Below, piece by piece: positions 10,130 through 42,717 of a stretch of 64,000 nucleotides of DNA (positions within the stretch are counted from its first letter, which is position 1; every line of letters starts with the position of its first letter). The notes beneath the pieces are model-generated. The model was not told the DNA's origin and searched no databases. It saw nothing but the letters and a program-made list of their open reading frames with translations. The position numbers and the translations under genes were made by a program. Source of the DNA: Alkalihalobacterium alkalinitrilicum (lineage in GTDB: Bacteria > Bacillota > Bacilli > Bacillales > Bacillaceae_F). Location of the stretch: assembly GCF_002019605.1 (NCBI RefSeq), contig NZ_KV917368.1, positions 527,809 to 591,808 on the forward strand, read 5' to 3'.

Positions 10130-10266
10130 CAACAACTAAATGAACACAGACTAGATACAGGCGCCACGTCCTATGGCAACGTCTTTGAGACCTACATTGT
10201 GTGGGCCTCAACTAATTATCAGTACGGGAAGAGGAAAACTCTCACTGATGGAAGTTTCACTTTAGT
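10130..10266 (+). repeat. Dispersed structured repeat, copy 1
   Basis: It contains the family blocks AACTAAATGAACACAGACTA, GCGCCACGTCCTATGGCAAC, GTGTGGGCCTCAACTAA, GGGAAGAGGAAAACTCTCAC and GATGGAAGTTTCACTTTA in the same order as the other copies. Some stem positions have changed. It ends 30 bp before the lipoprotein gene, so it may lie in that operon's leader. Confidence 0.8.
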
Positions 10267-10296
10267 TATCCGTATAACCTTCAAAGAGGTGTTAAC

Positions 10297-10752
10297 ATGA
10301 AGAAACCAAGAACCGAAAAGCTTTTGAAAGGGTTGCTTAGTTCAAGTGTGGCATTAATGGGACTGACGGCTTGTGCGCCTGCGCTACCAGATGAATTGTT
10401 TTCCACACCAGCAGAGCCAGAGCCGAATGTCGAGCCTGACCCGAATTTACTGCCTTCGCCAGAAGAGGCGGATTGTGATACGTGGACGTGGGATGAGGAA
10501 GCCGAGGGCTATCAATGTGTAGAAGAGGGCAATGAAAACTATGGCCATTATTACTATGGCGGTATGTGGTTCCCGACCATGGCTGCGTTCTTGGTGGGGA
10601 GAGCCTCGGCTGGTGGGGGTACGCGCACGAGACAGCCTGCGGTCACGCCACCGCGAACAGATGGAAATGTTAGTCAACCGAATCAACCAAGAAATCCACA
10701 AGTGACCAATCCTCGCTCAGGTATGGGTGAAGGAGGACGCTTTGGTGGATAA
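10297..10752 (+). CDS. Predicted lipoprotein at the head of the ATP-grasp operon
   Basis: This 151-residue protein has a basic start (MKKPRTEKLLKG), a hydrophobic stretch, and the lipobox LTAC with the lipidated cysteine at 26. The mature part is acidic and Pro/Glu-rich, then carries CDTWTWDEEAEGYQCVEEG with a Cys pair, a Tyr/Gly segment (YGHYYYGGMWFP) and a Gly/Arg/Pro-rich tail ending in GGRFGG. It probably sits on the outer face of the membrane. It occupies the position held by a DUF1190-type lipoprotein (YjfM/YgiB) next to YjfC/YgiC in enterobacteria. I infer an equivalent role but see no strong sequence identity. Its stop overlaps the start of the next gene. Confidence 0.75.
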   Translation: MKKPRTEKLLKGLLSSSVALMGLTACAPALPDELFSTPAEPEPNVEPDPNLLPSPEEADCDTWTWDEEAEGYQCVEEGNENYGHYYYGGMWFPTMAAFLVGRASAGGGTRTRQPAVTPPRTDGNVSQPNQPRNPQVTNPRSGMGEGGRFGG

Positions 10753-11983
10753 GCGAGACGCCTTTTATTCAACCATTCCGTCGTTTTGGGATCGTTTGTA
10801 CGGGGAGGAGTACGCTTTGTACGATTGTTTCCCGATTGAGCCGAAAGAAGTCTGTTCAATTCGAAAAGCAACCAACGAGGTTTATCGAATTTATAAAAAA
10901 TTTACTCAAATGCTAAGGCATGCTCCTGATGAGACGTTCATCGATCTCGGTTTTCCCGAAAAAGCACTGCCGTTTCTCAAGCTGTCGCTTCTTCCGTATG
11001 AAACCGTGATCGGGCGATTTGATTTTGTTCAAACAGAAGAAGGCTTAAAAATGATTGAGTTTAACTCAGATACGCCAACCTTTATCCGCGAGCTTTTTGA
11101 GGTGAATGGACTTGTTGCTGAGCAGTTTGGCATGGACGACCCGAATGATGAGGAAGCGAAGTATTTAGGCAAAGCACTACGGAACAGTATTTTTCATTGT
11201 GCGAAACAAATTGGGGTAACGGGCCACCCGTATGTAGTATTTACGGCCCATGAAGAGGATATCGAAGATCGCGAAACAATGAAGTTTTTGATGAAAACGG
11301 CGCAGATTAAAGGAGCAGCCTTTGTTCCGCTGCATCAACTCAAAGTAGATGCAGGAAGAGGTGTGTATGACGGAGCAGGAAATCAAATTGATATTCTCTA
11401 CCGCCACACCTATCCATTAGAAGCGTTATTGGAGGATGTGGCTATTGACCATTTTCCGATTGGAATCGAGTGCATGAATTTGGTGAACGAGAGAAAAGTG
11501 GGAATGTTAAACCCTGCATCGGCGTTTTTAATGCAGAGTAAGGCGGTTATGGCAGGGATTTGGGGATTGCATGAGCAGGAGCACCTTTTTTTTACAGCAG
11601 ACGAACATGAGACGATTGATCGTTATTTTCTGCCGACATATTTAGATGAAGAACCTTTTATTGAAAAGAACCAACGCTATGTCGAAAAGCCCGCTTTTGG
11701 CCGCGAAGGTGATACGATCGTCGTGAGAGAAAACGGCAAGACCCTTCATTCTTCCAAGCAAACGACCTACAATCACTATATAAAAATCTATCAAAAGTAC
11801 GCCTGTCTTCCGAAGACCTTGATTGCAACAGAAGCTGGCAAAAAAGAAGCTCACCTCTTAATTGGAAGTTTTATTATTAATGAAAAAGCAAGTGCATTTG
11901 GCTACCGAGCGGGTGCGCAAATTACGGACAACCTATCCTATTTCTTACCTTGCGGGGTGAAAGGAGAACGCGAATGGATCTAA
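10745..11983 (+). CDS. Glutathionylspermidine synthase-like ATP-grasp protein (YjfC/YgiC type), copy 1
   Basis: About 412 residues make up a single C-terminal-type synthetase domain of the GSP synthase family, without the amidase half of the E. coli Gss enzyme. Landmarks are MIEFNSDTPTFIREL near residue 100, the ATP-grasp lysine loop YVEKPAFGREGDTI near 315, and SFIINEKASAFGYRAG near 380. These supply ATP and Mg2+ contacts for forming an amide bond via an acyl-phosphate. The substrate is unknown. I choose the GTG at 10745 because AGGAGG at 10731-10736 is 8 nt upstream; a GTG at 10727 would precede the ribosome site. It overlaps the lipoprotein stop by 8 bp and the DUF350 gene by 10 bp. Confidence 0.85.
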   Translation: MDKRDAFYSTIPSFWDRLYGEEYALYDCFPIEPKEVCSIRKATNEVYRIYKKFTQMLRHAPDETFIDLGFPEKALPFLKLSLLPYETVIGRFDFVQTEEGLKMIEFNSDTPTFIRELFEVNGLVAEQFGMDDPNDEEAKYLGKALRNSIFHCAKQIGVTGHPYVVFTAHEEDIEDRETMKFLMKTAQIKGAAFVPLHQLKVDAGRGVYDGAGNQIDILYRHTYPLEALLEDVAIDHFPIGIECMNLVNERKVGMLNPASAFLMQSKAVMAGIWGLHEQEHLFFTADEHETIDRYFLPTYLDEEPFIEKNQRYVEKPAFGREGDTIVVRENGKTLHSSKQTTYNHYIKIYQKYACLPKTLIATEAGKKEAHLLIGSFIINEKASAFGYRAGAQITDNLSYFLPCGVKGEREWI

Positions 11984-12390
11984 CCTATTATCTACAAACC
12001 TTGGATCATTTTTTGATTTACTTAGCGGTATCTCTCGTGTTATTTGTCATAGGAACTTATATTTTTAAAATGATCACACCATACTCGGAACGGGATCAAA
12101 TTCGGAGCGGTAATGCGGCAGTGGCCTTAAAGCTGTTAGGGAAAATGGCAGGGCTCGTCGTCGTGTTGCAATCAGCTGTTATTCACTCGATCAACTTGGT
12201 TGATTTAGTGATTTGGGCTTTTATTGCGATTATTGTTCAAATTGTATTACATATCGTCATCGAATGTGTGTTTACGCGAAATACAAGTTTAGCGAAAGAA
12301 GTGGAAAATGGCAATGTGGCTGTAGGTCTGTTTCTAGGCGGTGTTTCGGTGTTAGTCGGCCTGATTGTCGCTGCCAATATTAGCTTTTAA
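11974..12390 (+). CDS. DUF350 membrane protein (YjfL-like)
   Basis: This 138-residue protein has four hydrophobic helices (about 10-30, 50-72, 77-100, 115-137), fitting two DUF350 repeats. The repeated motif is IRSGNAAVALKLLGK near 42 and VENGNVAVGLFLGG near 108, each starting a helix after a polar Gly-Asn-Ala/Val turn. The ATG at 11974 has AAGGAG 7 nt upstream, inside the end of the previous gene. DUF350 proteins such as YjfL are integral membrane proteins of unknown activity that recur beside GSP-synthase-like ATP-grasp genes. I infer that it is the membrane partner of the two enzymes. Confidence 0.85.
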   Translation: MDLTYYLQTLDHFLIYLAVSLVLFVIGTYIFKMITPYSERDQIRSGNAAVALKLLGKMAGLVVVLQSAVIHSINLVDLVIWAFIAIIVQIVLHIVIECVFTRNTSLAKEVENGNVAVGLFLGGVSVLVGLIVAANISF

Positions 12391-12404
12391 AAAGGAGGAT
12401 CTAG

Positions 12405-13646
12405 ATGCTTCCATACAAATCATTAACCGAACCATTTGAACCTAGTGCTTACTTAAAAAGGTGGGAAGAGCTCGAGCGGAAAGTAGCGGCGAAAGGCTTT
12501 ACTTGGGCTAGTCTATATGAAAACTATGAGGATAACCAGTACATGAGTGATTCATTACTCATTGTTCCACCATCACTTGTTCGCGAGTTAGAGAACGCAT
12601 CAAGAGCCGTCCATGATATTTTTCGAAAAACCTACGAACAGATGTCAAAGGACCGTTCGATTGTTCATAAAACAGGTATCTCTGTTTTTCTTTGGGATCT
12701 TTTATTTAAAGGGGGAAAATCGGCGTTTTCTTATTTTACAAGATATGATTTCATTGCTTCCGCAGGTGGCTTAAAGGTCATAGAGGGCAACACCGATACC
12801 CCCGTCGGGATCGTGGAAGCAGCGATTGCACAGGACATCATTTGTAAGGAGCACAAAAGTGTAAATCCGAATGAACGAATTGCAGCTAACATCAAAAATG
12901 CCTGGGATCAAATCATTCGCGATTATAACATCGCCAGCTCGGATACCCTTTATTTCACCTGCGCAGACTGGCACGATGAGGATAAAGCGACCGCTCACTA
13001 TTTAATGAGTCTCTACCCACAACAAGCAGAGTACATACCACTTGAGAAAATAGTCGTTGAAAAAGAAGACGTCCGAACACCAAGGGGAGAACGAATTGAC
13101 TTTTTGTACCGCCTATATCCTCTTGAATATTTTCTAGAAGAGGAAGGACCAACAGGAGAACAAATTGGCGAGCAGCTCCTTGTCCACATCATGAACGATA
13201 AAATCAAAGTGATTAATCCCCCATCCAGTTTACTGATGCAGTCAAAAGCGATCCTTGCTTTCATAACGGAAAAGAAAAAAGAGTGGTATACAAGTTCCGA
13301 ACAAGCGGTGATTGAGAAATACTTTTTACCAACTTACGAGACAGCCCATTCGATGCAATCTTATGTGAAAAAACCAGTGCTTGGCCGTGAAGGCGGCGGC
13401 ATCCAGATTGTCTCTGAAGGTCAAGTGCTAGACGAGGACGTCGAGTATTACCAAGATCAGCGCGTCGTCTTTCAACAATACTTCCCAATGCCCAACCAAA
13501 CCATTGATACATGGGACGGACCTTACAGTGGAAAATTATTAATCGGCTCCCATGTGATTAACGGCGAACCGAGCGGCCTTTTTTTCCGAGTCGGCGGCTT
13601 GATTACGGGAAACCTCTCCATGTTTGTTGCGTATACAACTGGCTGA
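12405..13646 (+). CDS. Glutathionylspermidine synthase-like ATP-grasp protein, copy 2
   Basis: This 413-residue paralogue of the protein two genes upstream has the same order of motifs: KVIEGNTDTPVGIVEA near 123, the conserved VINPPSSLLMQSKA near 275, YVKKPVLGREGGGIQ near 325 and SHVINGEPSGLFFRVGG near 380. AAAGGAGG lies 8 nt before the ATG and the gap from DUF350 is 14 bp. The two copies differ in the active-site Glu-Phe-Asn / Glu-Gly-Asn turn and in the loop after GREG. They may therefore use different acceptors, or act as a heteromer or in sequence. A strong terminator follows and ends the operon. Confidence 0.85.
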   Translation: MLPYKSLTEPFEPSAYLKRWEELERKVAAKGFTWASLYENYEDNQYMSDSLLIVPPSLVRELENASRAVHDIFRKTYEQMSKDRSIVHKTGISVFLWDLLFKGGKSAFSYFTRYDFIASAGGLKVIEGNTDTPVGIVEAAIAQDIICKEHKSVNPNERIAANIKNAWDQIIRDYNIASSDTLYFTCADWHDEDKATAHYLMSLYPQQAEYIPLEKIVVEKEDVRTPRGERIDFLYRLYPLEYFLEEEGPTGEQIGEQLLVHIMNDKIKVINPPSSLLMQSKAILAFITEKKKEWYTSSEQAVIEKYFLPTYETAHSMQSYVKKPVLGREGGGIQIVSEGQVLDEDVEYYQDQRVVFQQYFPMPNQTIDTWDGPYSGKLLIGSHVINGEPSGLFFRVGGLITGNLSMFVAYTTG

Positions 13647-13684
13647 GGAGGGGAAGAGACAGCAACTATATGAACTATAATGGG

Positions 13685-13734
13685 AAACCGCTTATATCTA
13701 AGAAAGTAAAACTCTAAGATATAAGCGGTTTTTA
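13685..13734 (+). terminator. Terminator of the ATP-grasp operon
   Basis: AACCGCTTATATCT and AGATATAAGCGGTT form a perfect 14-bp stem followed by five T. Confidence 0.9.
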
Positions 13735-13903
13735 AATAGGTTAAGCTGATTTATTATACCTTCTAACAATCTAGAGCTAGGATACATACTTAATATTTTC
13801 CCATGAGAGTGGCAGTCTTACGTATAATATGCTAATCCCCACCCTAACATTTCTAAAAGTTATATCAACTCTAGGTTTTCTGGATGGATATTAGGTTAAA
13901 CGT

Positions 13904-14131
13904 TTAATCAGGATATCGGTCTTCGCTAGAAGAAGTAGATTTTGTCGCGCGGTGATTTTTCTCATCTTTTACCTTTTCATTTAATTCTTCTACTGGGATT
14001 GGATCAACCGTTTGCATTTTTTCATCAGCATCGAAAATACTTTCCTTTTCCGTAGCTATTAAATCAGGATTGTCGAGTCTACGGCCTTTTAAATCTTTTC
14101 GTTTTTTTTTCTCGGATTGTTTCTTTGTCAT
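13904..14131 (-). CDS. Small, highly charged protein of unknown function
   Basis: It has 75 residues, with a very basic start (TKKQSEKKKRKDLKGRR) and an acidic, Ser-rich remainder. There is no hydrophobic segment, so it is cytosolic and probably disordered. I choose the ATG at 14131 because AGGGAG lies 8 nt upstream; an in-frame GTG at 14140 sits on the ribosome site. It resembles the short polar proteins common in Bacillaceae, but I recognise no family. Confidence 0.55.
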   Translation of the reverse strand: MTKKQSEKKKRKDLKGRRLDNPDLIATEKESIFDADEKMQTVDPIPVEELNEKVKDEKNHRATKSTSSSEDRYPD

Positions 14132-14362
14132 AATGATCACTCCCTTTAATTTATGTTAGTTACTATTTATCCTTTTTTATCGATGTTAAACATAATAGTT
14201 ATTTTAAAGAGAAATTGACTTCATATTAACATGGTGGTACTCATCCATTGAAGGGGTTTCTAATCTTAATTCAAACCATCAAATATACTTATAAAAATTT
14301 TAGTTCCTCTCGTTAATAAAAACCATATATATAGGGTAAAAGTCTAACAGGAGTAGATATCA

Positions 14363-15616
14363 TTGGACAGACAAAACACCCGATTTCGATGGATTGTATT
14401 TGCTTCTGTATTGTTTACTTATTTATTAATGTCGAGCCAACGAACTGCACCAGGTTTGATTACCGACCAAATTATGTTCGATTTTAATGTGACAGCAACA
14501 ACCATTGGGTTACTGACAAGCATTCAATTTTTTGTGTACACTGGGCTGCAAATTCCGATGGGATTTTTGGCAGATCGTTATGGACCTAATTTTTTTTTAA
14601 TTATGGGTGCCATGCTGACTGGTATAGGCACCATTATTTATAGTCTTGGTACGCATGAATATATCCTATTTATTGCCAGAATTTTAATAGGCGTTGGGGA
14701 TGCAACCATCTGGGTCAATATGGTGTTAATATTGAGCCATTGGTTTAATGCGAAGGAATTCACAAGGTTAATTGGGGTTACAGCTATGACAGGAAGTCTA
14801 GGCTTTCTTTTAGCAACAGTTCCATTCGCATTTTGGATTGACTTACTTGGTTGGCGGCCTGCATTCTTTTCTGCGGGGCTTCTACTCTGCTTATGTGGCA
14901 TTCTACTTTATTTTGTACTCATAAAAAAACCAAAACAAGCGGTATTTATAAAAAAAGAAAGACAACGGGAAAAAACGTGGGTGCTACTACGGAGAATATT
15001 TTCAAATCGTCAGGCATGGGCCTTGTTCTTATGTCACTTTGGAATTGTCGGAACGTATGTTGGATTTATCAGTTCGTGGGGAGTTCCTTTTGGAATGAAT
15101 GTGTACGGAATGACACTACAGGATGCCAGTCAGCTTATGATGATTGGTCTAATCGGAGCGTTGATTGGTGCTCCATTAGCTGGATGGATTTCTAGTCGGT
15201 TAAACGCTATCAAAAGGCCATATATTGTTGTACACCTCATTCTAGTATTGAGCTGGTCGATTTTTCTTTTCTTTCACGGGAATCCGCCATCTGTCTTGTT
15301 AACAGCCCTGTTCTTTACGATTGGCCTTGCATATGGGGCAAATGCATTAACATTTGCTGCCGTTCGTCAATCTTTTCCAATAAAAGAATCAGGCATTGTC
15401 TCTGGGTTTGCGAATACAGGTGGGTTTTTAAGTGCTGTATTGCTGCCGAGTATTTTTGGAAAAGTATTGGATCATTTTCAGGCGATTTCGGGTAGTGTCA
15501 TTGATGGATATTACTACGGTTTCATCACTCCAGTTGTTTTTTCTATGATAGGTTTGATCGGTGTAATTTTAATTAAGGAAAAAATCAGTTACAGAAGTAA
15601 AGTGAATGAGGAATAG
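14363..15616 (+). CDS. MFS transporter
   Basis: This 417-residue protein has about 12 membrane helices. The MFS loop 2-3 signature is MGFLADRYGPN near 75, and there is a long charged central loop (KKPKQAVFIKKERQREK) between helices 6 and 7. Start is TTG at 14363, with AACAGGAG about 8 nt upstream. The pattern RTAPGLITDQIMFDFNV near 27 is typical of anion or organic-acid MFS carriers, but the substrate is not clear. No regulator or enzyme gene is adjacent. The 265-bp gap to the next gene shows no obvious gene. Confidence 0.8.
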   Translation: MDRQNTRFRWIVFASVLFTYLLMSSQRTAPGLITDQIMFDFNVTATTIGLLTSIQFFVYTGLQIPMGFLADRYGPNFFLIMGAMLTGIGTIIYSLGTHEYILFIARILIGVGDATIWVNMVLILSHWFNAKEFTRLIGVTAMTGSLGFLLATVPFAFWIDLLGWRPAFFSAGLLLCLCGILLYFVLIKKPKQAVFIKKERQREKTWVLLRRIFSNRQAWALFLCHFGIVGTYVGFISSWGVPFGMNVYGMTLQDASQLMMIGLIGALIGAPLAGWISSRLNAIKRPYIVVHLILVLSWSIFLFFHGNPPSVLLTALFFTIGLAYGANALTFAAVRQSFPIKESGIVSGFANTGGFLSAVLLPSIFGKVLDHFQAISGSVIDGYYYGFITPVVFSMIGLIGVILIKEKISYRSKVNEE

Positions 15617-15923
15617 TGTGCACAAATGTCTGAAGTGGTTCTTCAAAGTTGTTCTAGAAGAACATCAAGATAAAAAAAACTTTCACAATTTTAAGTATCG
15701 ATGAACTAAAGGTGAATAGTGAAGTGAACGAAGCTATGGTGGATAAACAATATTACTACTATCTCATTGGTTATCAAGAGAGCAATTTCAAGGGATGTTG
15801 AGACTTTTACGACTATTAGGTAATTTTTTCAAAAATAGGGCGTTTACCACATGAGATTGGAGCAATTGTACCATAATAACTGTGTTCAAAAGGTATCAAA
15901 ATGAAGAAGAGGGGTTATTACTC

Positions 15924-16643
15924 ATGGTACAATCCATTAAAGGAAAAACAGCATTGATTACTGGGAGCGGTAAAGGAATTGGCAAAGCAGTTGCTATCGC
16001 CCTTGCTAAAGAAGGGGTGAATGTCGGTCTTTTTGCTCGAACAGAGGCTGACTTAAAAAGGGTTGCAGCAGAAATGGAGGGGCTAGGAGTAAAAGTGGCT
16101 TACGCGACTGGAGATGTTGCTTCATTAGAGGAAGTGGAAAGAGCAGTTGAAGCCCTCGCGAGTGAACTGGGTTCTTTTGATATATTGATTAACAATGCAG
16201 GAACAGGAAAGTTCGGAGGCTTTCTCGATCTTTCCCCAGATGAATGGAAAAATATGATAGATGTTAACTTAATGGGCGCTTACTACGTTACGAGGACGGT
16301 TCTTCCGCAGCTTATTGAAAAAAATGGCGGAGATATTATTAATATCGCTTCCACTGCTGGTCAAAAAGGGGCACCTGTAACAAGTGCATACAGCGCCTCA
16401 AAATTCGGGCTTCTTGGCTTAACGGAGTCACTAGCACTCGAAATTCGTAAACATAATATCCGCGTTTCTGCTTTAACACCTAGTACAGTTGCAACAGAGC
16501 TTGCTTTTAAAGAGAACTTAACGGACGGTAACCCTGAAAAAGTGATGCAACCCGAGGACTTAGCTGAATTTATCGTTGCTCAGTTGAAGCTCCATCCACG
16601 TGTATTCATTAAATCAGCTGGATTGTGGTCGACCAATCCATAA
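15924..16643 (+). CDS. yoxD: Short-chain dehydrogenase, YoxD-like 3-ketoacyl reductase
   Basis: This 239-residue classical SDR has the cofactor loop [10 protein letters not shown] near 13, NNAG near 89, the catalytic Ser of IASTAGQKG near 141, and the YSASK catalytic Tyr/Lys near 154-158. The C-terminus GLWSTNP and the segment [17 protein letters not shown] match the B. subtilis YoxD group as I remember it. I choose the ATG at 15924 because AGAAGAGGGG precedes it; the upstream in-frame ATG at 15882 lacks a site. It probably reduces a 3-oxoacyl or related carbonyl with NADPH; the physiological substrate is not established. A terminator follows. Confidence 0.85.
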
Positions 16644-16670
16644 CAATTAATAAATCAATCGATAAAAACA

Positions 16671-16711
16671 AAGGGGGTCTAGGGAAAATCCTAGGATCAC
16701 CCTTTTATTTT
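16671..16711 (+). terminator. Terminator after yoxD
   Basis: AAGGGGGTCTAGG pairs with CCTAGGATCACCCTT with a small bulge, followed by TTATTTT. From here to 17031 (about 320 bp) I see no further gene or hairpin. Confidence 0.65.
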
Positions 16712-17031
16712 GTTATTAAAAAGGGTTTAAGAACTTCAGAGTCCTAAGCTTGATGCCTCCTTGTTAGAGCTTTTAACTTATAAAGCAGGAAAAATTCGCA
16801 TAAAAAAGGAAGTAGTATTTTAGGTACCTTTATAATAATAAACAAAATATTGTGCTTGAAAAATCATTCCTGTTAATCTTGCTACCAAGTTGGACACTTT
16901 CAAGTAATAATTAAAGGAAAACCAATAGAAAAAATAGGCTTTGATTATTAGATCATCACTCCATTTCACCATATTCGTACAAACTACTTGTGGGTGAAAG
17001 TAATATTTTTCTTCGAGGAGGGTATAAACAA

Positions 17032-18789: not shown

Positions 18790-18867
18790 TTGATATAGAA
18801 ATACAGTCTTAAGCTGATCCACATGTTTATTACTAAAGAAATGAAGAGAAATGGTTTTTTAAAAGTA

Positions 18868-18902: not shown

Positions 18903-18936
18903 CAGTTGGGATGAGGGAACTATCCAAAATTGATTA

Positions 18937-25706: not shown

Positions 25707-25762
25707 GTACTTTCAGTGGGAAGAGGAAAACATTACTGATGGAAGTTTTACTTTATTTTTAA
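25707..25762 (+). repeat. Dispersed structured repeat, 3' hairpin only (partial copy)
   Basis: TTCAGTGGGAAGAGGAAAAC...ACTGATGGAAGTTTTACTTT matches the last hairpin and tail of the 10.1, 39.1, 41.9 and 42.5 kb repeats. The upstream modules are absent. It lies about 95 bp before the purC-like gene. Confidence 0.65.
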
Positions 25763-29525: not shown

Positions 29526-30644
29526 TCTACAAAACTCCTTACTAAACGAATTTTCAAATTAAAGAGGGGATGTCACAACACACAAGAGTGTATGACTACT
29601 TGAGACGTACCCCTAAAGTAACTTTTTGAAACAAAAAAACAAGTGTAACACGCAACACTTGCGCACAACACTTGCTTAAGACATTATCAATCATATTAAA
29701 AAGCATAAGTATACTATGATATAGACATATGTATACATCTATCATAAAAGTCCAAAAACAGTATAATAGAAAGCTCTTAATATTCAAAATATATCATAAT
29801 AGGCTCAGAGTCTATATAGCAAATAATTACTTTTAGCACTCTTATTGACCGTTTCACAAGTTGTTGTGCAAATGCACTGGTTATAAAGTAACCAACTTAT
29901 AAAATTTGAGCTTTTAACTCAATCAATAAGGCAACTAAGTTGCCAGTCGGCATTAGACCCGGCTGTCCGTATGGCCTTGACTTCCAAATGGAAGTGGTCA
30001 GTATTATCTGCATGGAAAGAAGTGATATATGGAATATTTTGCTTTCCAATAATGCTTTTATAGAGTAACAACTAATTTTATAAATTTCAATAGGTAAAAT
30101 AAAAAAATTTAAAAAAATTTAATGATGGAAAAATTTTTCAGTTTTCACCTTTACTTGTTTTGATGGAGTGAAGAAATTTCTGAATATTTTCATTGTTTTT
30201 TGGGTCTGAGTGTTTATTTCTGTCGATGGTTAGCTACTCACTTCTACGTAAGAGTTTTTACAAAACCTGATTAAGTTGTCCCTTTAACACTCCATTTCCG
30301 CTATAGTATAGCCAGTTAATTCTTGAATGTCAATGAAAGAAAATCTTTTTAAAATCATCTGTTTTGCTACTTTTCAATCCCTATGTAAAGCCTTTTCCCT
30401 CCATGAAGTCATTAGTTTCACAATATGACTCACTCCATCTTTTAGAATGCGTTAAATATACTTATTTAACAGGAGTTTTTTTAGCTGTTTGTGAAAGTTT
30501 GAAATGATAATATTGGAGAGAAATACCAATTAATTGTTTGGGAATAACTAAAGAAGTAACCCAAAACGTTTTTACACTTGCAGAAGAATTGCATGTAATT
30601 TAACATTATTTTTGAATGATTTCTTATGAGGGGGCGATGGGAAG
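29526..30644. other. 1.1-kb AT-rich intergenic region
   Basis: It is divergent between the polyamine operon and the DnaA-domain gene. It holds the structured segment listed separately at 29926-30020 and a small inverted repeat (CAAGTGT/ACACTTG near 29640). Short open frames on the minus strand (29596-29787, 30481-30678) have no ribosome site or domain. I see no gene. Confidence 0.5.
29926..30020. ncRNA. Possible structured RNA upstream of the polyamine operon
   Basis: Three short stems occur in tandem: GGCAAC/GTTGCC around TAA, a GC-rich segment TCGGCATTAGACCCGGC, and ACTTCC/GGAAGT inside a weaker TTGAC/GGTCAG pairing. GC content is clearly higher than the flanks. I do not recognise a known riboswitch consensus, and the strand is uncertain. 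Confidence 0.25.
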
Positions 30645-31369: not shown

Positions 31370-31720
31370 TTAGCTCCGAATTTGTTTTTTTATTCGTTCA
31401 ATATCCATGTCATGTCGACTCGATTGTTCGCGCAAATAATCAATATCATATGAAACATTTGTTATTTTTTTGTCAACTACTTTTAACATCCCAAACACTT
31501 CTTGTTGCTGTGCTTCTTCAATACGATCGAGTTGACCTTTCATAGCACTAATATCATTCTTCATGTCTTTAATGTCTTGATTTACATTATTAATATCCTG
31601 TTTTAGTTCCTGATGTACATTATTAATATCATGTTTCAGTTCTTGATGTACATTATTAATATCGTGCTTTAGTTCTTTAATCTGTTCCATGAATAAACGA
31701 AACATTTCTTCAGTTTTCAT
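31370..31720 (-). CDS. Coiled-coil protein with tandem 11-residue repeats
   Basis: This 116-residue, entirely helical and charged protein has tandem 11-residue units of the form ELKHDINNVHQ at about 16-49: two nearly identical, then ELKQDINNVNQ and DIKDMKNDISA. The DNA shows the matching 33-bp repeats. The remainder keeps heptad- or hendecad-like spacing (MKGQLDRIEE, YDIDYLREQ). No membrane segment or domain. GGAGGTGATTT precedes the ATG. It is probably an oligomeric cytosolic rod; the function is unknown. Confidence 0.7.
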   Translation of the reverse strand: MKTEEMFRLFMEQIKELKHDINNVHQELKHDINNVHQELKQDINNVNQDIKDMKNDISAMKGQLDRIEEAQQQEVFGMLKVVDKKITNVSYDIDYLREQSSRHDMDIERIKKQIRS

Positions 31721-33797: not shown

Positions 33798-34136
33798 GGC
33801 ATTCAGTTCAAATAAACGGTTTTGAAACGAGCCGACAGGACGTTAAGGTAGTTCATTAGAACAAGCCTTGTCCATGAAAGTCTAAGGGAACGGAATGAGT
33901 ATCTATATCAAGCTTTCATAGGTATAGAAGAAGTACCTCAAGTACCTAGAACCCACCGAATTTATTCGTGTGGAGTTTCAGATAAACATTACATTCGTTG
34001 TATACCTTATCATGACAAATGAAAATGATAACACAAAAGGTGATACGCTTTTACCTTTTCCTGACAGGTGCTTTCTTCTCATTTATGCTAAAATAATGAA
34101 GTCTAATCATCATTTAAGAAATAAAGGAGTACGAAA
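33798..34136 (+). other. Right end of IS element 1 and SEC-C upstream region
   Basis: After the tnpB stop there is GC-richer non-coding sequence to about 33995 that could be guide-RNA scaffold and right end. An AT-rich promoter region for the next gene follows. No coding sequence seen. Confidence 0.4.
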
Positions 34137-35942: not shown

Positions 35943-36101
35943 TAATAGGGACGGTTCCCGATGAATAAAGAGTCGTGGCACCGAAGCTGTCTTTTTTTTC
36001 GACCAACGCCCGAATGAGTTAAGACAAGACAAAGACACGATAAGGAACGTAAATTAATAGCATTTTTTACAGCGATACTTAAAATGAAGCATAAAAAGAA
36101 A

Positions 36102-36260
36102 GAGGCTGGGACATAACCAAAAAGCTCAATTTAAAAGCGAATAATAGCAGGTTAAAGAAGCCTATAAATACAAAAATCCGAACTAATTCAAATTCTAACC
36201 GAAGAATTTCGAATCGTAGTTCGGATTTTTCTTTGACTAAAGCACTTTTATCCTAGCCTC
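36102..36260. repeat. GAGGCTGGGACATAA-type dispersed element with nested terminator
   Basis: It opens with GAGGCTGGGACATAA and closes with TTTATCCTAGCCTC, an imperfect inverted copy. Inside, AAAAATCCGAACTA and TAGTTCGGATTTTT form a 14-bp stem (36172-36230) enclosing a second AAATTC/GAATTT pairing. The GAGGCTGGGACA block is a dispersed repeat I recall from several Firmicutes. The remaining sequence between 35943 and 36394 shows no gene. Confidence 0.6.
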
Positions 36261-36528
36261 ATTCTCATCCTTTAGTAAGAATAATCGGGGAAAAAGAAAG
36301 GAAAGATGATCAAGCAACAATGTTAAATATCTCTTTTTCCTTAATCCAGATTTCTCCACCTTTATTCTAATACTTTAACGTCTTTCCGAAAGAAGTCTCC
36401 CTCTTCAAGCGTGTGAAGGGCGTAGCCCAACGGTAAGGGGGAGATGAATTTCGGTTGGGCTTTTTTCTTTTGTCTTTTTTCTCGTTATGTTATAATCAGT
36501 CTTATAAAGAATAAGGATTGATATAACA

Positions 36529-36927
36529 ATGAAGTTAGATAGTAATAACCATTCAGTATTCTTGATGTATTATCACCTTGTATTAGTTGTGAAGTATCGA
36601 AGAAAGGTCATTGATGATACTATTTCAAACTATGCAAGAGATAAATTCGTGTCGTTGAGTGAGAAATACAATATTACATTAGTCGAGTGGAACCATGATA
36701 TTGACCATGTACATATTCTTTTCAAAGCACAACCTAATAGTGAATTGTCCAAATTTATCAACGCCTACAAAAGTGCAAGTTCAAGACTCATCAAGAAGGA
36801 TTTTCCTCATGTTCGTAAAAAGTTGTGGAAAGAAATGTTTTGGTCAAGAAGCTTTTGTTTATTGACTACTGGTGGTTCGCCTATTGAAATGGTGAAAAAT
36901 TATATTGAAAATCAAGGAATGAAGTGA
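36529..36927 (+). CDS. tnpA: IS200/IS605 family Y1 transposase TnpA
   Basis: This 132-residue HUH enzyme has His60-Val-His62 in DHVHILF and Tyr125 in VKNYIENQG. The opening YYHLVLVVKYRRKVI and the SKFINAYKSASSRLIKKDFP segment are typical. It differs widely from the element 1 TnpA, so the two elements arrived separately. It ends 11 bp before tnpB. The start has no strong ribosome site, as is common for IS200 transposases whose translation is restrained. Confidence 0.9.
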   Translation: MKLDSNNHSVFLMYYHLVLVVKYRRKVIDDTISNYARDKFVSLSEKYNITLVEWNHDIDHVHILFKAQPNSELSKFINAYKSASSRLIKKDFPHVRKKLWKEMFWSRSFCLLTTGGSPIEMVKNYIENQGMK

Positions 36928-36938
36928 GGTGATTTGAT

Positions 36939-38054
36939 ATGGCTAAACAAAACAAGGCTTATAAGTTTCGACTGTATCCAACAGATGAACAGGCTTTGAT
37001 GATACGCAAAACTTTTGGTTGCGTTCGTTTTGTCTACAATAAAATGTTAGCCGAACGAAAAGAAACGTACGAAAACCTGAAAGATGATAAAGAAGCATTG
37101 GAAAAGGTGAAGCATCCGACTCCTGCTAAATATAAAAAGGAGTTTGCATGGTTAAAAGAAGTAGACTCATTAGCCCTAGCAAATGCACAACTAAACTTGA
37201 ATAAGGCATACAAAGCATTCTTCAAAGGTAATGCAAAGTTTCCAAAATTCAAAAGTAAGCGACATAACCAAAGCTACACAACGAATGTCGTAAATGGGAA
37301 TATTCAGTTGTTGGATGGTCATATCAAATTACCGAAACTAAAAATGGTGAAAATCAAACAACATCGAAACATTCCTTCTGACCATACAATCAAATCTTGT
37401 ACAGTTTCTATGACTTCATCAGGAAAATACTATATTTCCATTCTCACAGAGTACGAAAAAGAGATTAAGAGTAAGGACATTGAAAATGTTGTAGGTTTAG
37501 ATTTTGAGATGAATGGGTTATTTGTTGATAGTGAAACAGGTAAGAAAGCCAATTACCCACGTTTCTATCGACAAATGATTGATAAATTAGCAATTGAACA
37601 ACGTAAACTTTCTCGCAAAAAGAAGGGGTCTTCAAATTGGAACAAACAACGTATTCGAGTGGCTAAAATCCAAGAAAAAGTCGCCAATCAACGAAAAAAC
37701 TACTTACATCATCAATCGAAAGCATTAGTTATATCTTATGATGCGGTTATTATCGAGGACTTGGATATGAAAGGGATGTCACAAGCTCTAAAATTCGGGA
37801 AAAGTGTCGCTGATAACGGTTGGGGAATGTTCACTTCTTTCTTACACTACAAGCTAAAAGAACAAGGGAAACAACTTGTCAAAATAGATAAATGGTTCCC
37901 ATCTACTAAAACTTGTTCGAGTTGTGGTTCGATAAGAGAAATACGATTATCGGAACGTACCTATCAGTGCGATTGTGGGCTAAATCTTGATAGAGATTAC
38001 AATTCGGCGCTAAATATCAAAAAAGAAGGCATACGCTTATTAGCAACTGCCTAA
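36939..38054 (+). CDS. tnpB: TnpB RNA-guided nuclease
   Basis: This 371-residue canonical TnpB starts KAYKFRLYPTDEQALMIRKTFGC. The RuvC-like triad is Asp188 (VVGLDFEMN), Glu273 (VIIEDLDM) and Asp353 (LDRDYNSALNI). The zinc ribbon is Cys326/Cys329 and Cys344/Cys346. TnpB proteins cut DNA next to a motif matching the left end of their element, guided by an RNA from the right end. Preceded by GAGGTGATTTG. All key residues are intact, so it is probably active. Confidence 0.92.
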   Translation: MAKQNKAYKFRLYPTDEQALMIRKTFGCVRFVYNKMLAERKETYENLKDDKEALEKVKHPTPAKYKKEFAWLKEVDSLALANAQLNLNKAYKAFFKGNAKFPKFKSKRHNQSYTTNVVNGNIQLLDGHIKLPKLKMVKIKQHRNIPSDHTIKSCTVSMTSSGKYYISILTEYEKEIKSKDIENVVGLDFEMNGLFVDSETGKKANYPRFYRQMIDKLAIEQRKLSRKKKGSSNWNKQRIRVAKIQEKVANQRKNYLHHQSKALVISYDAVIIEDLDMKGMSQALKFGKSVADNGWGMFTSFLHYKLKEQGKQLVKIDKWFPSTKTCSSCGSIREIRLSERTYQCDCGLNLDRDYNSALNIKKEGIRLLATA

Positions 38055-38178
38055 TGCAAATATAAACTCTTGGAACAAGAGGGTTAGCTTGGTCAAATTC
38101 GTCAGCTACCAAAAGTGGCGATTACCCAAGAAGCCCCCACTTCAAACAACCCGTAAGGGTGGTAAGTGGTGGGTAGTT
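38000..38178 (+). ncRNA. Predicted TnpB guide (omega) RNA and right end
   Basis: By analogy with other TnpB elements, the guide RNA should span the 3' end of tnpB and the non-coding right end, with its guide just beyond 38178. The segment has the stems CCCCCACTT/AAGTGGTGGG and ACCC/GGGT. The boundaries are inferred. Confidence 0.45.
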
Positions 38179-38230
38179 CACTATCACATAAGAGCACACA
38201 AAACATAAACTGTACAGAAGGGGGGGATTT

Positions 38231-38581
38231 ATGTTGTTCGGAAGATACGGAAATAATGAAAAACTATATCAACAATCTCCAAATTCTGAACCTTCATACT
38301 CTAAAAATCCACCTATTACAGAATGTTCGATCCAGGATTTGTTCAAAGGGAAAAACTTAGATCTAATCGCAGCTGCTTTACTATTAACGGGTAAACTAAA
38401 GGTCGATTCGGTTGAGCTATTTCGCGGCTCGCCAGTTGTAGTTGTAACTTTACTTGGAAAATACTTAACGACTGGAAATGATAAATCTAATGCTTTAGCT
38501 GATTTTCTCGAAGAAAATGGAGATATGACACTTGATGATGTATTTGATGCTTTTCAGAAGAGAATGGAAAAAGGGAGATAA
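38231..38581 (+). CDS. Small protein of unknown function
   Basis: It has 116 residues. A polar Asn/Ser/Pro-rich N-terminal third comes first, then a hydrophobic stretch (LDLIAAALLLTGKLKVDSVELF), then SPVVVVTLLGKYL and an acidic helical end. GAAGGGGGGG lies close before the ATG. It starts about 50 bp after the IS end, so the insertion is just upstream of its promoter. A tiny frameshifted membrane-protein frame follows by 3 bp, suggesting an operon. I recognise no family. Confidence 0.5.
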   Translation: MLFGRYGNNEKLYQQSPNSEPSYSKNPPITECSIQDLFKGKNLDLIAAALLLTGKLKVDSVELFRGSPVVVVTLLGKYLTTGNDKSNALADFLEENGDMTLDDVFDAFQKRMEKGR

Positions 38582-38584
38582 ATA

Positions 38585-38739
38585 ATGAGCAGAAAAAAAT
38601 AAATGATTATGGTAATGAATATAAGGGAAAAGGTTTTGACGGAATAGGTTTAACAGGTGGAATCTTTCTCGCAATTTTTCTCTTTTTATTAGTTTTTGGC
38701 TCCACTGACATAGATGATTTAACAGATGCCCCTGGTTAA
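38585..38739 (+). pseudogene. Tiny membrane protein frame broken in a poly-A tract
   Basis: ATG at 38585 reads MSRKK and stops at TAA right after seven A (38593-38599). One extra A would give MSRKKINDYGNEYKGKGFDG followed by a hydrophobic helix (LTGGIFLAIFLFLLVFG) and DIDDLTDAPG, 51 residues. It could be a true frameshift, transcriptional slippage on the A run, or a sequencing error. Confidence 0.5.
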
Positions 38740-39132
38740 AGGAGCTTTTACCTGAGTATTATAAATGAGGCGTGTATACTTACGTCAACTTATGCATGTT
38801 CGTAGAGGGTGAAGGGTATTTTCTTCCTTTTACTAGACTAAACAATTAGTGCTTACCTTGACTTGGTAAGCACCGTATTCATGTACACTTATCTTTCAAT
38901 TTCTAGCTTCGTACCATTGTCAAATTTTACTTGTAGCTCAATTTCTTGTTTGCATCGAGGCATTGTCAGTTGTTGTTCGTAGATTAGCGGTAGGAACAGT
39001 TGAACGTTCTTCTGTTTGAACAACAGTTTAATTAGATTATTTACCACAATAAATTTGCACAAAAAAATATTTATTTAGGGCATCTCTTTTCATTTGAGGT
39101 GTCTTTTATTTTATCGGGTAACAACTGCCAGT
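38740..39132. other. Gap with a perfect hairpin and a weak minus-strand frame
   Basis: GTGCTTACC and GGTAAGCAC (about 38850-38875) form a perfect 9-bp stem and may be a terminator. A 52-codon minus-strand frame at 38889-39047, ending KQEIELQVKFDNGTKLEIER, has plausible composition but no ribosome site. I do not call it as a gene. Confidence 0.35.
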
Positions 39133-39265
39133 AACAACTAAATGAACACAGACTAAAGGCGCCACATTCTGTGGCAACGTATGTGTGACCCACATCTTGT
39201 AGGCCTCAACTAACCATCAGTGGGGGAAGAGGAAAACCCACTCACTGATGGATGTTTCACTTTAT
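39133..39265 (+). repeat. Dispersed structured repeat, copy 2
   Basis: It carries all core blocks: AACTAAATGAACACAGACTA, GCGCCACATTCTGTGGC, GGCCTCAACTAACCATCAG, GGGGGAAGAGGAAAACCC and CACTGATGG. GCCAC/GTGGC and CATCAGTG/CACTGATG pair perfectly. The loop of the GCCAC stem differs from the other copies. It is about 175 bp upstream of the CDF gene. Confidence 0.85.
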
Positions 39266-39439
39266 TCGATTAATTTTGACTTAAGGCAAAAAAATATAAT
39301 GAATGAAAGTTATTTTACTCGTGTTATATAACTTGTCACCCCGCAAAAACGTTGCTGTAGACCCACTCGATATTGGTCTGATAGTATAAAAAAGCATAAA
39401 AAGAGGAATAGTTCATTAATTTTGTGGTGGTGTATATAG

Positions 39440-40369
39440 ATGGATGATCGTTTTAAACAAGCAGAGGTTGCAACATGGATAGGAATAGTTGTAAATGGAG
39501 TTTTAGCAATAATGAAAGGGTTTATCGGTTGGTTGTCGGGAAGTCGAGCTTTAATAGCAGATGCCGCTCATTCAGCTTCTGATGTAGTAGGCTCAATTGC
39601 CGTTCTTGCAGGATTACGTACGGCTAAAAAGCCTCCAGATAAAGATCATCCGTATGGGCATGGAAAAGCCGAAAATATTGCGACGATCATTGTCGCTATT
39701 CTATTAATCGTTATTGGTGTAGAAATAGCGATATCTTCATTAAAAATAATTTTTGGTGAAATACCTCCTGCTCCCAAAGGGATAGCATTAGGCGCTATTA
39801 TTATTTCGATACTCGTAAAGGAAGTGCTGTTTCAATATAAGTATCGTCTTGCAAAAAAAATTAACAGTTCAGCGTTACTAGCAGAGGCATGGCACCACCG
39901 TTCAGATGCATTATCATCAATTGCAGCTTTTGTAGGTGTACTGGGTGCCATCTTAGGTCAACAGTATAACTATCCTATATTCATTTATTTAGATCCATTA
40001 GCAGGATTGGTCGTATCCATCTTGGTTATTAAAGTAGGATTCTCACTGGCAAAGGAATCAAGCCTCATTATGATGGAGCAAGTTCTTGGTCCTGAAAAAA
40101 CGAAACCTTACATTAAGACGGTAACTAATATCGAAGGTGTGAAAAGAGTTGACGAGTTGTTGGCTAGAACACATGGACACTACATTGTCATCGATATTAA
40201 AGTGAGTGTAGATCCTCATATAAGTGTAGAGGAGGGGCATTTTATTTCAAAGAAAGTCAAACAGGGTCTATTAGCTAACCATAGGGATATAAAAAAAGTA
40301 TTTGTTCACATTAACCCGTATCGGATAGAAAGTAACTATAACAATGTACGTAATACAGTTAAAGTATAG
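39440..40369 (+). CDS. Cation diffusion facilitator (CDF) metal exporter
   Basis: This 309-residue protein has six membrane helices and a C-terminal cytosolic domain. Metal-site motifs are His44-x3-Asp48 in ADAAHSASD (helix 2) and His152-x3-Asp156 in AWHHRSD (helix 5). The HPYGHGKAE loop near 70 is diagnostic. The His at position 44 in place of Asp suggests zinc, iron or manganese preference cannot be set by eye. It exports divalent cations by proton exchange. GGTGGTG precedes the ATG. It probably has its own promoter. Confidence 0.9.
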   Translation: MDDRFKQAEVATWIGIVVNGVLAIMKGFIGWLSGSRALIADAAHSASDVVGSIAVLAGLRTAKKPPDKDHPYGHGKAENIATIIVAILLIVIGVEIAISSLKIIFGEIPPAPKGIALGAIIISILVKEVLFQYKYRLAKKINSSALLAEAWHHRSDALSSIAAFVGVLGAILGQQYNYPIFIYLDPLAGLVVSILVIKVGFSLAKESSLIMMEQVLGPEKTKPYIKTVTNIEGVKRVDELLARTHGHYIVIDIKVSVDPHISVEEGHFISKKVKQGLLANHRDIKKVFVHINPYRIESNYNNVRNTVKV

Positions 40370-40407
40370 GGAGTAAGATATCGAAAATAAACTAGGGGGT
40401 CATACAT

Positions 40408-40482
40408 ATGAAATTAGATGGAAAAGTAGCTATTGCAGGAGCAGCATTTGGTGCATCTAAGCATGCGGTGGTTGATTGCTGA
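40408..40482 (+). pseudogene. SDR oxidoreductase remnant with internal deletion
   Basis: The 24-codon frame MKLDGKVAI...AGAAFGASKHAVVDC joins a typical SDR N-terminus directly to the catalytic YxASKHAV region (Phe for Tyr). The central ~140 residues are missing. AGGGGGT precedes the ATG, so the original gene start survives. Confidence 0.65.
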
Positions 40483-40617
40483 AAATAAATAATACAAGAT
40501 AGTTGAACAAATTTGACTTGTATTTAGTATGGTTTTAGTGATTTAATATATGATTCATAAATCTGGGTGGTACCGCGGTCCAATCGTCCCTTTTTAGAGG
40601 CGATTGGATTTTTTTAT
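40483..40617 (+). promoter_or_regulatory. T-box riboswitch remnant (antiterminator and terminator only)
   Basis: GGGTGGTACCGCGG (40565-40578) is the diagnostic T-box sequence, followed by the terminator CCAATCG...CGATTGG and a run of T. AATACAAG/CTTGTATT upstream could be stem III. Only about 80 nt precede the T-box and then comes the SDR remnant, so the specifier stem I with its codon is missing. The next gene is an EamA transporter 240 bp downstream. Confidence 0.7.
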
Positions 40618-40856
40618 AGTAGTATAGCAGTCATTTTCTCAGTAAGTGCCCGATTGGTTCAAACTAACAATTAATAAGTACAAATAAGAGGAATTATTGA
40701 CTTAATTATCGAAAGGGAAGATATACTTTAACACCATGTAAGAGAAGTCTGTTGAATAAGCCACTTTTCTGAACGCTTTAGGTGTAATTTAACTACAGTG
40801 TACAAACAAAAGTAATTCCAAATAATGGATATATTTTATTTGTACAGGGAGGAAAC

Positions 40857-41822
40857 ATGAAAATGAATAAACTTGTAAATTTCAATAAGGCAAAAAGCTT
40901 TCTTCAAACGGATCAATCTAATAAATTACTACTTCTATCAGTAATTCTTATATGGGGGTATGCATGGGTAACAATGAAAATGTCATTGGAATATACAGGC
41001 CCATTTACCTTCTCAGCTTTTCGGTTTCTTATAGGTGCTCTAACGTTACTGCTCATCCTATTTTGGAAAAGAGTACCTAGGCCGAAAAAAAAACTTTGGG
41101 GACCGCTTATTTTACTTGGAATATTTCAAACTACCTTAGTTTATATTTTTGTAATGACAGGAATGAGATTTGTAGATGCAGGAAAATCATCAGTTATTCT
41201 ATATTCTATGCCACTTTGGAGTGCCATTCTTGCTAGCAAGTTTTTAAACGAAAAAGTTTCATGGATAAGAGGTGTCGGAGTAGGGTTAGGTGTAGTGGGG
41301 CTTTCTTTTGTTATTGGTATAGACGTTTGGAAAAATCAAAATATGATGGTTCTAATGGGTGAAGGATTCATTGTATTAGCAGCAGTCATTTGGGCTGCCG
41401 CTAACATCTACCATAAAAAGGTTTTTGCTGGTGAAAATCAGTTAACAGTTACAACGTATCAAATGTTGTTTGGTATGGTCGGGTTATTTTTGGCAGCTTT
41501 ATTAATGGAAAGAAATGAACCAATTATTGTGAATGTAACAAGCATATCCTTACTTCTTTTTACTGGGATATTAGCTTCAGCATTTTGTTTTTCCGTTTGG
41601 TTTTATTTGTTAGAAAAGCTAGATACAAATACATTAACGAATGCTTCCTTGCTTGTTCCGATTGCCGGTATAGTTGCTAGCTATTTTTCTCTCCAAGAAC
41701 CAGTTACATTAGAGATGTTCTTTGGAGCTATGTTGATACTTATTGGGATCATGGTAAATAAAAATGATCAACTAATTTATAAAAAATTAAAGTTAAAAAC
41801 GGGACACAATGAGAATATATGA
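40857..41822 (+). CDS. EamA-family transporter (DMT superfamily)
   Basis: This 321-residue protein has ten hydrophobic helices and two EamA repeats (about 25-155 and 170-305). Signatures are ILIWGYAWVTMKMSLEYTGPFTFSAFRFLIGALTL, shown here in part, with repeat 2 opening EGFIVLAAVIWAAANIYHKK. Such carriers often export amino acids or metabolites. GGGAGG lies 5 nt before the ATG at 40857. A T-box remnant upstream hints that the original regulation responded to an uncharged tRNA. Confidence 0.85.
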   Translation: MKMNKLVNFNKAKSFLQTDQSNKLLLLSVILIWGYAWVTMKMSLEYTGPFTFSAFRFLIGALTLLLILFWKRVPRPKKKLWGPLILLGIFQTTLVYIFVMTGMRFVDAGKSSVILYSMPLWSAILASKFLNEKVSWIRGVGVGLGVVGLSFVIGIDVWKNQNMMVLMGEGFIVLAAVIWAAANIYHKKVFAGENQLTVTTYQMLFGMVGLFLAALLMERNEPIIVNVTSISLLLFTGILASAFCFSVWFYLLEKLDTNTLTNASLLVPIAGIVASYFSLQEPVTLEMFFGAMLILIGIMVNKNDQLIYKKLKLKTGHNENI

Positions 41823-41867
41823 TGACTACATAATAAACGACACTTTTTTTTATCATTAGCAAAAATT

Positions 41868-42084
41868 TTATCCCGCAACAACTGGCAGTAATACAACCAC
41901 TTCAAGACTTTGAGGAATCAAAGGAGGATTAGTGGGGGATAAACTGCCAGTACAAGCTTAATGAACACAGACTAAGTGCGCCAGGTCCTGTGGCAACGTC
42001 TGTGTGAGCCACATCGTGTGGGCCTCAACTAACCAACAGTGGGGGAAGAGGCAAACCCTCACCGATGGAAGTTTCACTTGATTA
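41868..42084 (+). repeat. Dispersed structured repeat, copy 3 (long form)
   Basis: The extra 5' module has ACTGGCAGT pairing with ACTGCCAGT (9 bp, perfect) and internal CTTTGA/TCAAAG and CCACT/AGTGG stems. Then comes the core: ACACAGAC pairs with GTCTGTGT, followed by CCACATCGTGTGG and the 3' hairpin. It lies between the EamA gene and the small acidic gene. Confidence 0.85.
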
Positions 42085-42227
42085 TAACAATTGCCAGGGA
42101 AGGTATTTCTAAAGGACCAAGGATAAGACGGTTAACACATCATGAGGTTTTCCGGATGAAGAGAAGCGTTAAAAAAATGGTATAAGAAACCCTTCAATTT
42201 CTAAAAATGAAAATGGAGGTGTCCACT

Positions 42228-42485
42228 ATGACATACAACCATGATGTAGATTACGACCGAGACGGTGATCGTGAAGATCAAATTTCAAAAGATCAAAGAG
42301 AAGAGATCTTAAAGGAAAATCTTAAACAAGAGGAAGAAATGATGAAATCGTATCTCATTTTAGCTGAACGGACTCACGATGATGACGTATTAAAAAATCG
42401 CCTAATGAATTTTGCTGAAGGAAATGCCAAACGCTCAAGACAATTAGAGGATGAGATTAATCAAATTCCAGAAGACGCGCAGTAA
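42228..42485 (+). CDS. Small acidic helical protein between two repeat copies
   Basis: It has 85 residues, strongly acidic and helical, with an Asp/Arg-rich start (DVDYDRDGDREDQISKDQ). ATG at 42228 with GGAGGTG upstream; an in-frame ATG at 42207 is less likely. There is no membrane segment or known domain. The gene is bracketed by the repeat copies at 41868-42084 and 42496-42717. Its leader (CTAAAAATGAAAATGGAGG) is partly repeated near 42787 after the second copy, suggesting a local duplication. Confidence 0.65.
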   Translation: MTYNHDVDYDRDGDREDQISKDQREEILKENLKQEEEMMKSYLILAERTHDDDVLKNRLMNFAEGNAKRSRQLEDEINQIPEDAQ

Positions 42486-42495
42486 GGTTGAATTC

Positions 42496-42717
42496 ATTTT
42501 ATCCCGCAACAACTAGCTGTAATACCCCCACTTCAAGACTTCGAGGAATCAAAGAAGGATAAGTGGGGATAAACTGCCAGTACAAGCTTAATGAACACAG
42601 ACTAAATGCGCCACGTCCTGTGGCAACGTCTGTGTGACCGACAGACATCGTGTGGGCCTCAACTAACCATCAGTGGGGGAAGAGGAACCCCCTCACTGAT
42701 TGAAGTTTCACTTTATT
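42496..42717 (+). repeat. Dispersed structured repeat, copy 4 (long form)
   Basis: It has the same architecture as copy 3. The 5' module reads CCCCCACTTCAAGACTTCG, AATCAAAGAAGG and TAAGTGGGG; its CCCCCACTTCAA is identical over 12 nt to the right-end hairpin of IS element 2. The core has ACACAGAC/GTCTGTGT and a small insertion (GACAGA) near 42640. Confidence 0.85.

Follow-up and report, generated by a model that had tools for sequence, protein, structure and literature searches.

Here we describe a family of short repeats, several copies of which lie in a 64,000-nucleotide stretch of the genome of Alkalihalobacterium alkalinitrilicum (contig NZ_KV917368.1, positions 527,809 to 591,808; hereafter the window), and which is probably a non-autonomous, modular mobile element of the kind represented by BOX and bcr1, mobilized in trans at replication forks and carrying the Bacillaceae-1 sequence as an exchangeable module. 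The complete unit consists, in order, of TTTAT, a 5′ hairpin, an optional Bacillaceae-1 core, a 3′ hairpin and the tail AAGTTTCACTTTAT. Its copies are 53 to ~230 bp long, have sharp ends, are absent from orthologous sites in related species, fall into discrete length classes, are present across the order, and are oriented with the replication fork more than with the neighboring genes.

A sequence-only reading of the window had correctly labelled the repeat a dispersed structured family, and its blocks recur well beyond the window. At up to three mismatches, right ends number 134 and left ends 89 in the host chromosome, and the reversed patterns gave none. At least 102 matches to the core are present, 98 of which lie above the cut-off; this is a minimum, as 150 of the 544 candidates were scored. 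Of 299 genomes sampled from the order, 87 contain right ends and the remaining 212 none; a reversed control gave 7 single matches over all 299. When counted with a single pattern, right ends number 125 in the host, and 3, 3 and 10 in three congeneric species. A search of plasmids returned three records, none of them named as belonging to the Bacillus cereus group (the hosts of bcr1), and a search of phages returned none. In viral contigs the 15-base right tail gave 56 stretches, most of which are probably chance matches, and longer right ends were found in two (L438 and L419) of the three searched (L438, L399 and L419); the core model had no match on six viral-contig stretches. Across a set of 80 loci around tepA in other Bacillaceae and eight further loci, the sole match to the core model was at L307.

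Copies across the host chromosome start with TTTATCCCGCAACAACTGGCAGTAATA, which is followed by a hairpin based on ACTGGCAGT/ACTGCCAGT; the interior is either the Bacillaceae-1 core or, instead, a short stretch containing CCCGATTGGTTCAACTAA; and the 3′ part is the hairpin CATCAGTG/CACTGATG followed by GAAGTTTCACTTTAT. A second subfamily opens with TTTATCCCGTTTAACTGGCGC. Among the 92 distinct elements that have both ends within the sampled fifth of the host genome, 5 measure 53–68 bp, 8 measure 70–125 bp, 18 measure 126–170 bp and 61 measure 171–235 bp. Five of the 92 are, by pattern, copies made of ends only (two were read directly), and further ends-only copies occur in genome G243, which belongs to another genus and family, and in an IMG/VR contig that bears phage-like genes. 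A Pseudalkalibacillus plasmid carries two elements that have no core and whose 5′ hairpin is long and very stable, and at locus L419 the core is inverted between ends of the same kind. In an Rfam scan of a core-less element all matches, mostly to microRNA hairpins, fell below the gathering scores of their families. The predicted DNA folds contain two subterminal hairpins that differ from each other, as is required of palindrome-associated transposable elements (PATEs). Guide sequences that pair with the cleavage sites are likewise part of the PATE definition; by eye, none that was convincing was seen.

The bases at the ends were measured on copies defined by their cores, with TTTAT absent from the search pattern, to avoid circularity. 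Among 102 such copies (some without a recognized end), TTTAT precedes 47 of 68 left ends and follows 56 of 85 right tails. Each of its five bases is 83–97% conserved; at the adjacent outer base, A or T reaches at most 45%. Eight host elements are absent at the orthologous sites of same-genus species, in a comparison over ~1.1 Mb of G002 plus smaller portions of G001 and G003; a ninth case, beside tepA and confounded by a second right end, was excluded. The TepA proteins closest to that of the host are 92% identical to it and belong to Alkalihalobacterium. Two of the eight empty sites resolve nearly to the base: near C1:2373613, G001 and G002 hold one TTTAT in place of the host element, and near C1:2221400 the flank alignments join without a gap in G002. 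At the remaining six, divergence of the flanks obscures the exact junction. TTTAT on both sides, sharp limits and a single TTTAT at the best empty site would also be produced by a miniature inverted-repeat transposable element (MITE) of a DDE transposase that makes 5-bp TTTAT duplications, with the bias in orientation coming from target choice or selection. We consider such a MITE unlikely; in particular, no terminal inverted repeat was seen by eye when the left end, TTTATCCCGCAACAAC (also TTTATCCCGCAAC), was set against the right end, AAGTTTCACTTTAT, in reverse complement.

Orientation was judged against GC skew sampled in 61 stretches of the host chromosome, by which the leading strand is the + strand from ~3.88 Mb via the contig end to 1.1 Mb and the − strand from 1.24 to 3.71 Mb. 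The fork is followed by 92 of the 100 right ends listed (of 134), by 82 of 89 left ends and by 90 of 102 cores; omitting the ends that lie in two unsampled gaps in the skew leaves 88 of 95 right ends and 79 of 84 left ends. Counted as distinct elements in the sampled host sequence, 81 of 92 follow the fork. Since open reading frames (ORFs) also lie mostly on the leading strand (729/952), the orientation of elements was assessed separately by the direction of the neighboring genes, using 86 elements that lie outside ORFs and have both neighbors. Between two leading-strand genes 52 of 56 elements follow the fork, and between two lagging-strand genes 6 of 7 do, so that the fork, not gene direction, seems to set the orientation of the element. 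In G243, with a skew sample each 180 kb, 86 of 97 follow the fork.

These findings bear on three of the alternatives. Neither the 92 of 100 listed right ends nor the 6 of 7 elements between lagging-strand genes is predicted for a MITE that is moved by a duplex cut-and-paste enzyme. Terminators, or stabilizers of mRNA 3′ ends, that follow transcription would fit a 3′ hairpin succeeded by a T-rich tail, as well as the median distance of 99 bp to the upstream ORF. We give this reading hardly any credence, however: the six copies just mentioned run opposite to their flanking genes, and elements lie next to terminators no more often (10/93) than control TTTAT sites do (107/1002). Many left flanks are terminator-like, but at this same control rate, and the idea that the element targets terminators was likewise discarded. 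A chromosome-organizing motif whose orientation is selected, like that of other skewed motifs, would account for fork orientation in two genera. It is nevertheless very unlikely, given the erratic copy number among congeneric species and across the order, and given that the copies decay.

The sequence-only reading could not match the repeat to any known family. Its core, however, can be assigned: all four copies in the window share a 67-nt core that matches Rfam family RF01690 (Bacillaceae-1) at 44.4–65.2 bits, against a gathering score of 35. The 2010 description of Bacillaceae-1 presented it as a structured RNA (PMC2864571), and it is treated as a small RNA (sRNA) gene of unknown function and unsure strand, with the reverse strand proposed to act as a CsrA sponge (PMC4333381). 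This family accounts for just the central part of the element; the RF01690 model has no TTTAT carrier, no flanking hairpins, no fork orientation and no core-less or inverted forms.

Between lineages, the core covaries strongly. In an alignment of 84 distinct rows, fitted to the covariance model, 91.5% of pair cells are standard and 363 cells are changed on both sides, compared with 111 in shuffles; structures slid along the alignment are only 26–36% paired. The same covariation was seen in a 14-row alignment made without the model, its rows hand-picked and its structure derived from those rows. The core also keeps the unpaired caps TAA..AAC and ACRTCSTGT. Within the host genome the picture is different. 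Perfect stems with variable loops had been taken as a sign of selection on structure, yet among the copies of this genome compensated changes are outnumbered. The changed pair cells of 44 host cores comprise 9 that are compensated and 87 that are not (16 G–T, 22 A–C and 49 otherwise broken), and those of 88 right-end hairpins comprise 25 compensated and 155 others, among them 36 G–T and 29 A–C. The stem arms of these hairpins deviate at 0.14 and 0.165 per base, against 0.065 for the unpaired tail, the conservation of which is favored because it belonged to the search pattern. One figure does favor the earlier claim: the host cores carry 0.064 changes per base in stems and 0.099 at unpaired positions, although the variable positions 21–23 contribute more than half of the unpaired changes, and excluding them leaves ~0.05 per base. 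Covariation between lineages, taken together with decay within a genome, therefore indicates that structure mattered in the lineages that went on spreading and not visibly in individual resident copies.

The strong covariation between lineages and the conserved unpaired caps are nonetheless what would be expected if each copy were a functional small RNA or RNA element, as Rfam reads it, for example the CsrA sponge on the reverse strand; some cores, moreover, probably lie inside rRNA operons and hence would be transcribed. We regard this reading as quite improbable. The stems decay within the host genome, and the ratios of G–T to A–C cells (16 to 22 in the core and 36 to 29 at the right end) reveal no tolerance of RNA wobble on either strand. 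The core also occurs in both orientations and in unrelated carriers. As for a CsrA sponge, which would need GGA in both hairpin loops of the reverse strand, hairpin C retains this triplet in only 12 of 56 host cores, yet 50 of 61 rows from elsewhere keep it (the rows used were those with both loop motifs, 56 of 102 from the host and 61 of 84 from other genomes). Finally, G–T cells make up 38 of 1496 in the core, 18 of them at one loop-closing pair (20 of 1413 when that pair is excluded), as compared with 34 of 384 G–U cells in two stems (acceptor and T) from 32 tRNAs; such a scarcity of G–U pairs fits DNA hairpins and would be unusual for RNA.

Several cores stand out by their sequence or position. 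In nine host cores (C1:515379, 4264235, 4420243, 4877054 and others) a perfect palindrome, ACAGACGTTGCCAC...GTGGCAACGTCTGT, takes the place of the internal loop, as though replication had used one arm as the template for its partner. Eight cores that share a single score and sequence, all on the − strand (C1:1856494, 3182898, 3358222, 3472624, 3512274, 3635858, 3642229 and 3707821), are situated 295 nt (in one case 165 nt) upstream of a 5S-like sequence, and it is these that, judged by position, probably lie inside rRNA operons. The cores at C1:3046114 and 3364182 start 103 and 456 nt ahead of a 16S start.

In four other genomes (G012, G014, G037 and G038), the core was found by reading to sit inside different palindromic repeats that have their own ends, and the core therefore travels between carriers. 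These repeats (L119–L133 in G037, L139–L158 in G014, L159–L170 in G012 and L171–L178 in G038) are present in high copy number and have multiple hairpin modules, among them the core, which occurs in either orientation as well as in tandem. They suggest that Bacillales have a broader system of mosaic repeats.

Under our preferred reading, that of a trans-mobilized modular element, the termini would be the TTTAT target with the 5′ hairpin on one side and the 3′ hairpin with AAGTTTCACTTTAT on the other, the interior would be optional, and the Bacillaceae-1 core would be one exchangeable passenger. Movement would take place at the fork through hairpin-folded single-stranded DNA on the lagging-strand template, by means of a transposase supplied in trans, and the inserted copies would then decay with no visible constraint. 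Coupling to the fork is supported by the data, and a step through single-stranded DNA is what we infer. Hairpin ends and orientation to the lagging-strand template are traits of Y1 transposition (PMC6006769), and TTTAT is a target motif of some IS605-type elements (PMC10640517, PMC12908284). The element resembles IS200/IS605-type elements and PATEs in these hairpin ends, in its orientation to the lagging-strand template and in its insertion 3′ of a short fixed target (at the two of eight empty sites that are resolved). As a tentative first guess, the enzyme might be an HUH/Y1 protein of the IS200/IS605 or a related type. A bolder version of the idea, which we hold to be doubtful, is that the repeats constitute a class of fork-coupled, single-strand mini-transposon, reducible to ends of ~53 bp with possibly one hairpin and mobilized by an enzyme outside the recognized Y1 transposases, and that Bacillaceae-1 is a DNA hairpin cassette, not an RNA, passing between unrelated carriers.

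A number of observations weigh against the preferred reading. An autonomous copy with tnpA and these ends, as expected of an IS200/IS605-type partner, was not found at the loci examined in the host and elsewhere (the tnpA/tnpB loci examined in the host leave out two Y1 matches, at C1:4113071 and 4122467), and the host IS605 copies examined have other ends. A tnpA remnant near one right end (L188), the only promising locus, proved to adjoin a separate element and was set aside. Among 40 chosen genomes, any Y1_Tnp match was found in 18 of 20 that are rich in right ends and in 15 of 20 that have none, so that there is no useful association with the repeat, and the presence of a Y1 gene was rejected as a tracker of it. 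Two of the 20 right-end-rich genomes lack a Y1_Tnp match (G059, with 74 right ends, and G049, with 45), which also speaks for the DDE transposase discussed above, and two have a weak fragment only. At each of the two Y1 genes in G243, the sequence within 1.5 kb that most resembles a right end has 3 mismatches in 15 and is probably a chance match. As to orientation, the zone boundaries in both the host and G243 were fixed after the strands had been seen; the test between lagging-strand genes comprises seven elements; and one G243 skew sample, at 0.90 Mb, contradicts the boundary and, taken literally, changes the count to 85 of 97. In the other carriers only 24 of 45 cores follow the fork by local skew (9/13, 5/16, 8/9 and 2/7; 51 loci in four genomes, less six with weak skew), and the core was accordingly rejected as the unit that is oriented; it is to the TTTAT ends that orientation belongs. 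Lastly, a 5-bp TTTAT duplication is indistinguishable from the case in which target and element each supply one TTTAT, and the argument from G–U pairs is indirect.

An IS605-type element with tnpA and tnpB occupies positions 36374–38181 of the window and has near-identical copies elsewhere in the genome; mobilization of the repeat by this element (about 36374–38181) was ruled out, as its ends are unlike those of the repeat. The two G243 genes (L460 and L461) encode single-copy Y1 proteins of ~190–200 aa that look like the tyrosine transposases associated with repetitive extragenic palindromes (REPs), termed RAYTs, and comparable long but weaker Y1 matches are present in many of the 40 genomes.

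The core was already known, and the modular parasitic repeat is a kind known from bcr1 and BOX. Like the present element, bcr1 of the B. cereus group is short, occurs in many copies, has features of mobile DNA and contains a TTTAT motif (PMC6542083). The element has TTTAT at its ends as bcr1 does; the likeness is one of description. The BOX repeats of streptococci are likewise modular and parasitic, with fixed termini and exchangeable inner modules, and in Streptococcus suis different BOX termini share one inner module (PMC3049150), to which the presence of Bacillaceae-1 in different carriers is a parallel. BOX is described there, however, with terminal inverted repeats like those of insertion sequences, whereas the element shows none by eye and is oriented with the fork. 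The GTAG or CGTC tag of REP/RAYT systems (PMC3733652) was seen by eye at neither end of seven aligned elements, CGTC occurring within the core only. In the literature searched, so far as its available parts go, we found no description of the carrier, its fork orientation or the passenger status of the core; the Bhal-1/Bhal-2 families (PMC2267715) were not compared.

Bacillus subtilis gives a match to RF01690 in a control scan. The 1997 genome paper on B. subtilis 168 reportedly noted a structured 190-bp element, present ten times and in the same orientation relative to the fork. On that description it resembles the present element, with far fewer copies. Eight Bacillaceae-1 structures have been counted in B. 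subtilis (PMC8208703).

Within the window, direct reading bore out the four copies that had been reported with their blocks in fixed order; all lie on the + strand. The first, at 10121–10265 (core 10135–10205, read directly and by Rfam), is a short form that lacks the 5′ hairpin module and has the right end TTTAG; the 60-aa ORF that spans it (10118–10300) is probably there by chance. A second short form, at 39110–39265 (core 39137–39203), has a perfect CATCAGTG/CACTGATG hairpin. The other two are long forms, which do carry, as had been stated, an additional module with a 9-bp stem: that at 41867–42082 (core 41956–42022) comprises TTTAT, the 5′ hairpin ACTGGCAGT/ACTGCCAGT, the core, the 3′ hairpin and the right end TTGAT, and that at 42498–42716 (core 42586–42656) has the right end TTTAT. 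The statement that several stems are perfect was too strong, since ACACAGAC/GTCTGTGT is perfect in two of the four copies (41867 and 42498) and CATCAGTG/CACTGATG in only one (39110). The proposed copy that consists of the 3′ hairpin alone is real: a right-end hairpin with its tail, GAAGTTTTACTTTAT, lies at about 25710–25756 on the + strand and belongs by direct repeats to the family of the four. So is the decayed copy, at about 54296–54388 on the + strand, in which the core and the beginning of the right-end hairpin remain and the right tail is missing; its local alignment score is 59, against a maximum of 27 among 2833 other windows, and the core covariance model alone gives it 11.9 bits (E 0.7).

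The decayed copy adjoins the start of an ORF (54374–55489), which by its motif resembles the C-terminal portion of an acyl-CoA synthetase of the AMP-binding type; the gene seems to be cut short where the repeat lies. Positions 51901–51930 hold a right-end-like remnant. Elsewhere in the window, positions 29947–30000 on the − strand match SpF59_sRNA (RF02440, 73.9 bits), an Rfam family described from Streptococcus, and three tandem direct repeats spaced at 33 nt lie at 31568–31675.

Taken together, our findings suggest that the catalogued Bacillaceae-1 ‘small RNA’ family is, at least in part, a module of mobile DNA. Being a module of a mobile repeat would explain its erratic copy number and points to the movement of DNA rather than to a regulon, and annotations in which such copies are tallied as sRNA genes should be re-examined. 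The TTTAT carrier, with right ends in 87 of the 299 genomes, may serve as a natural record of the strand that is open to insertion at replication forks.

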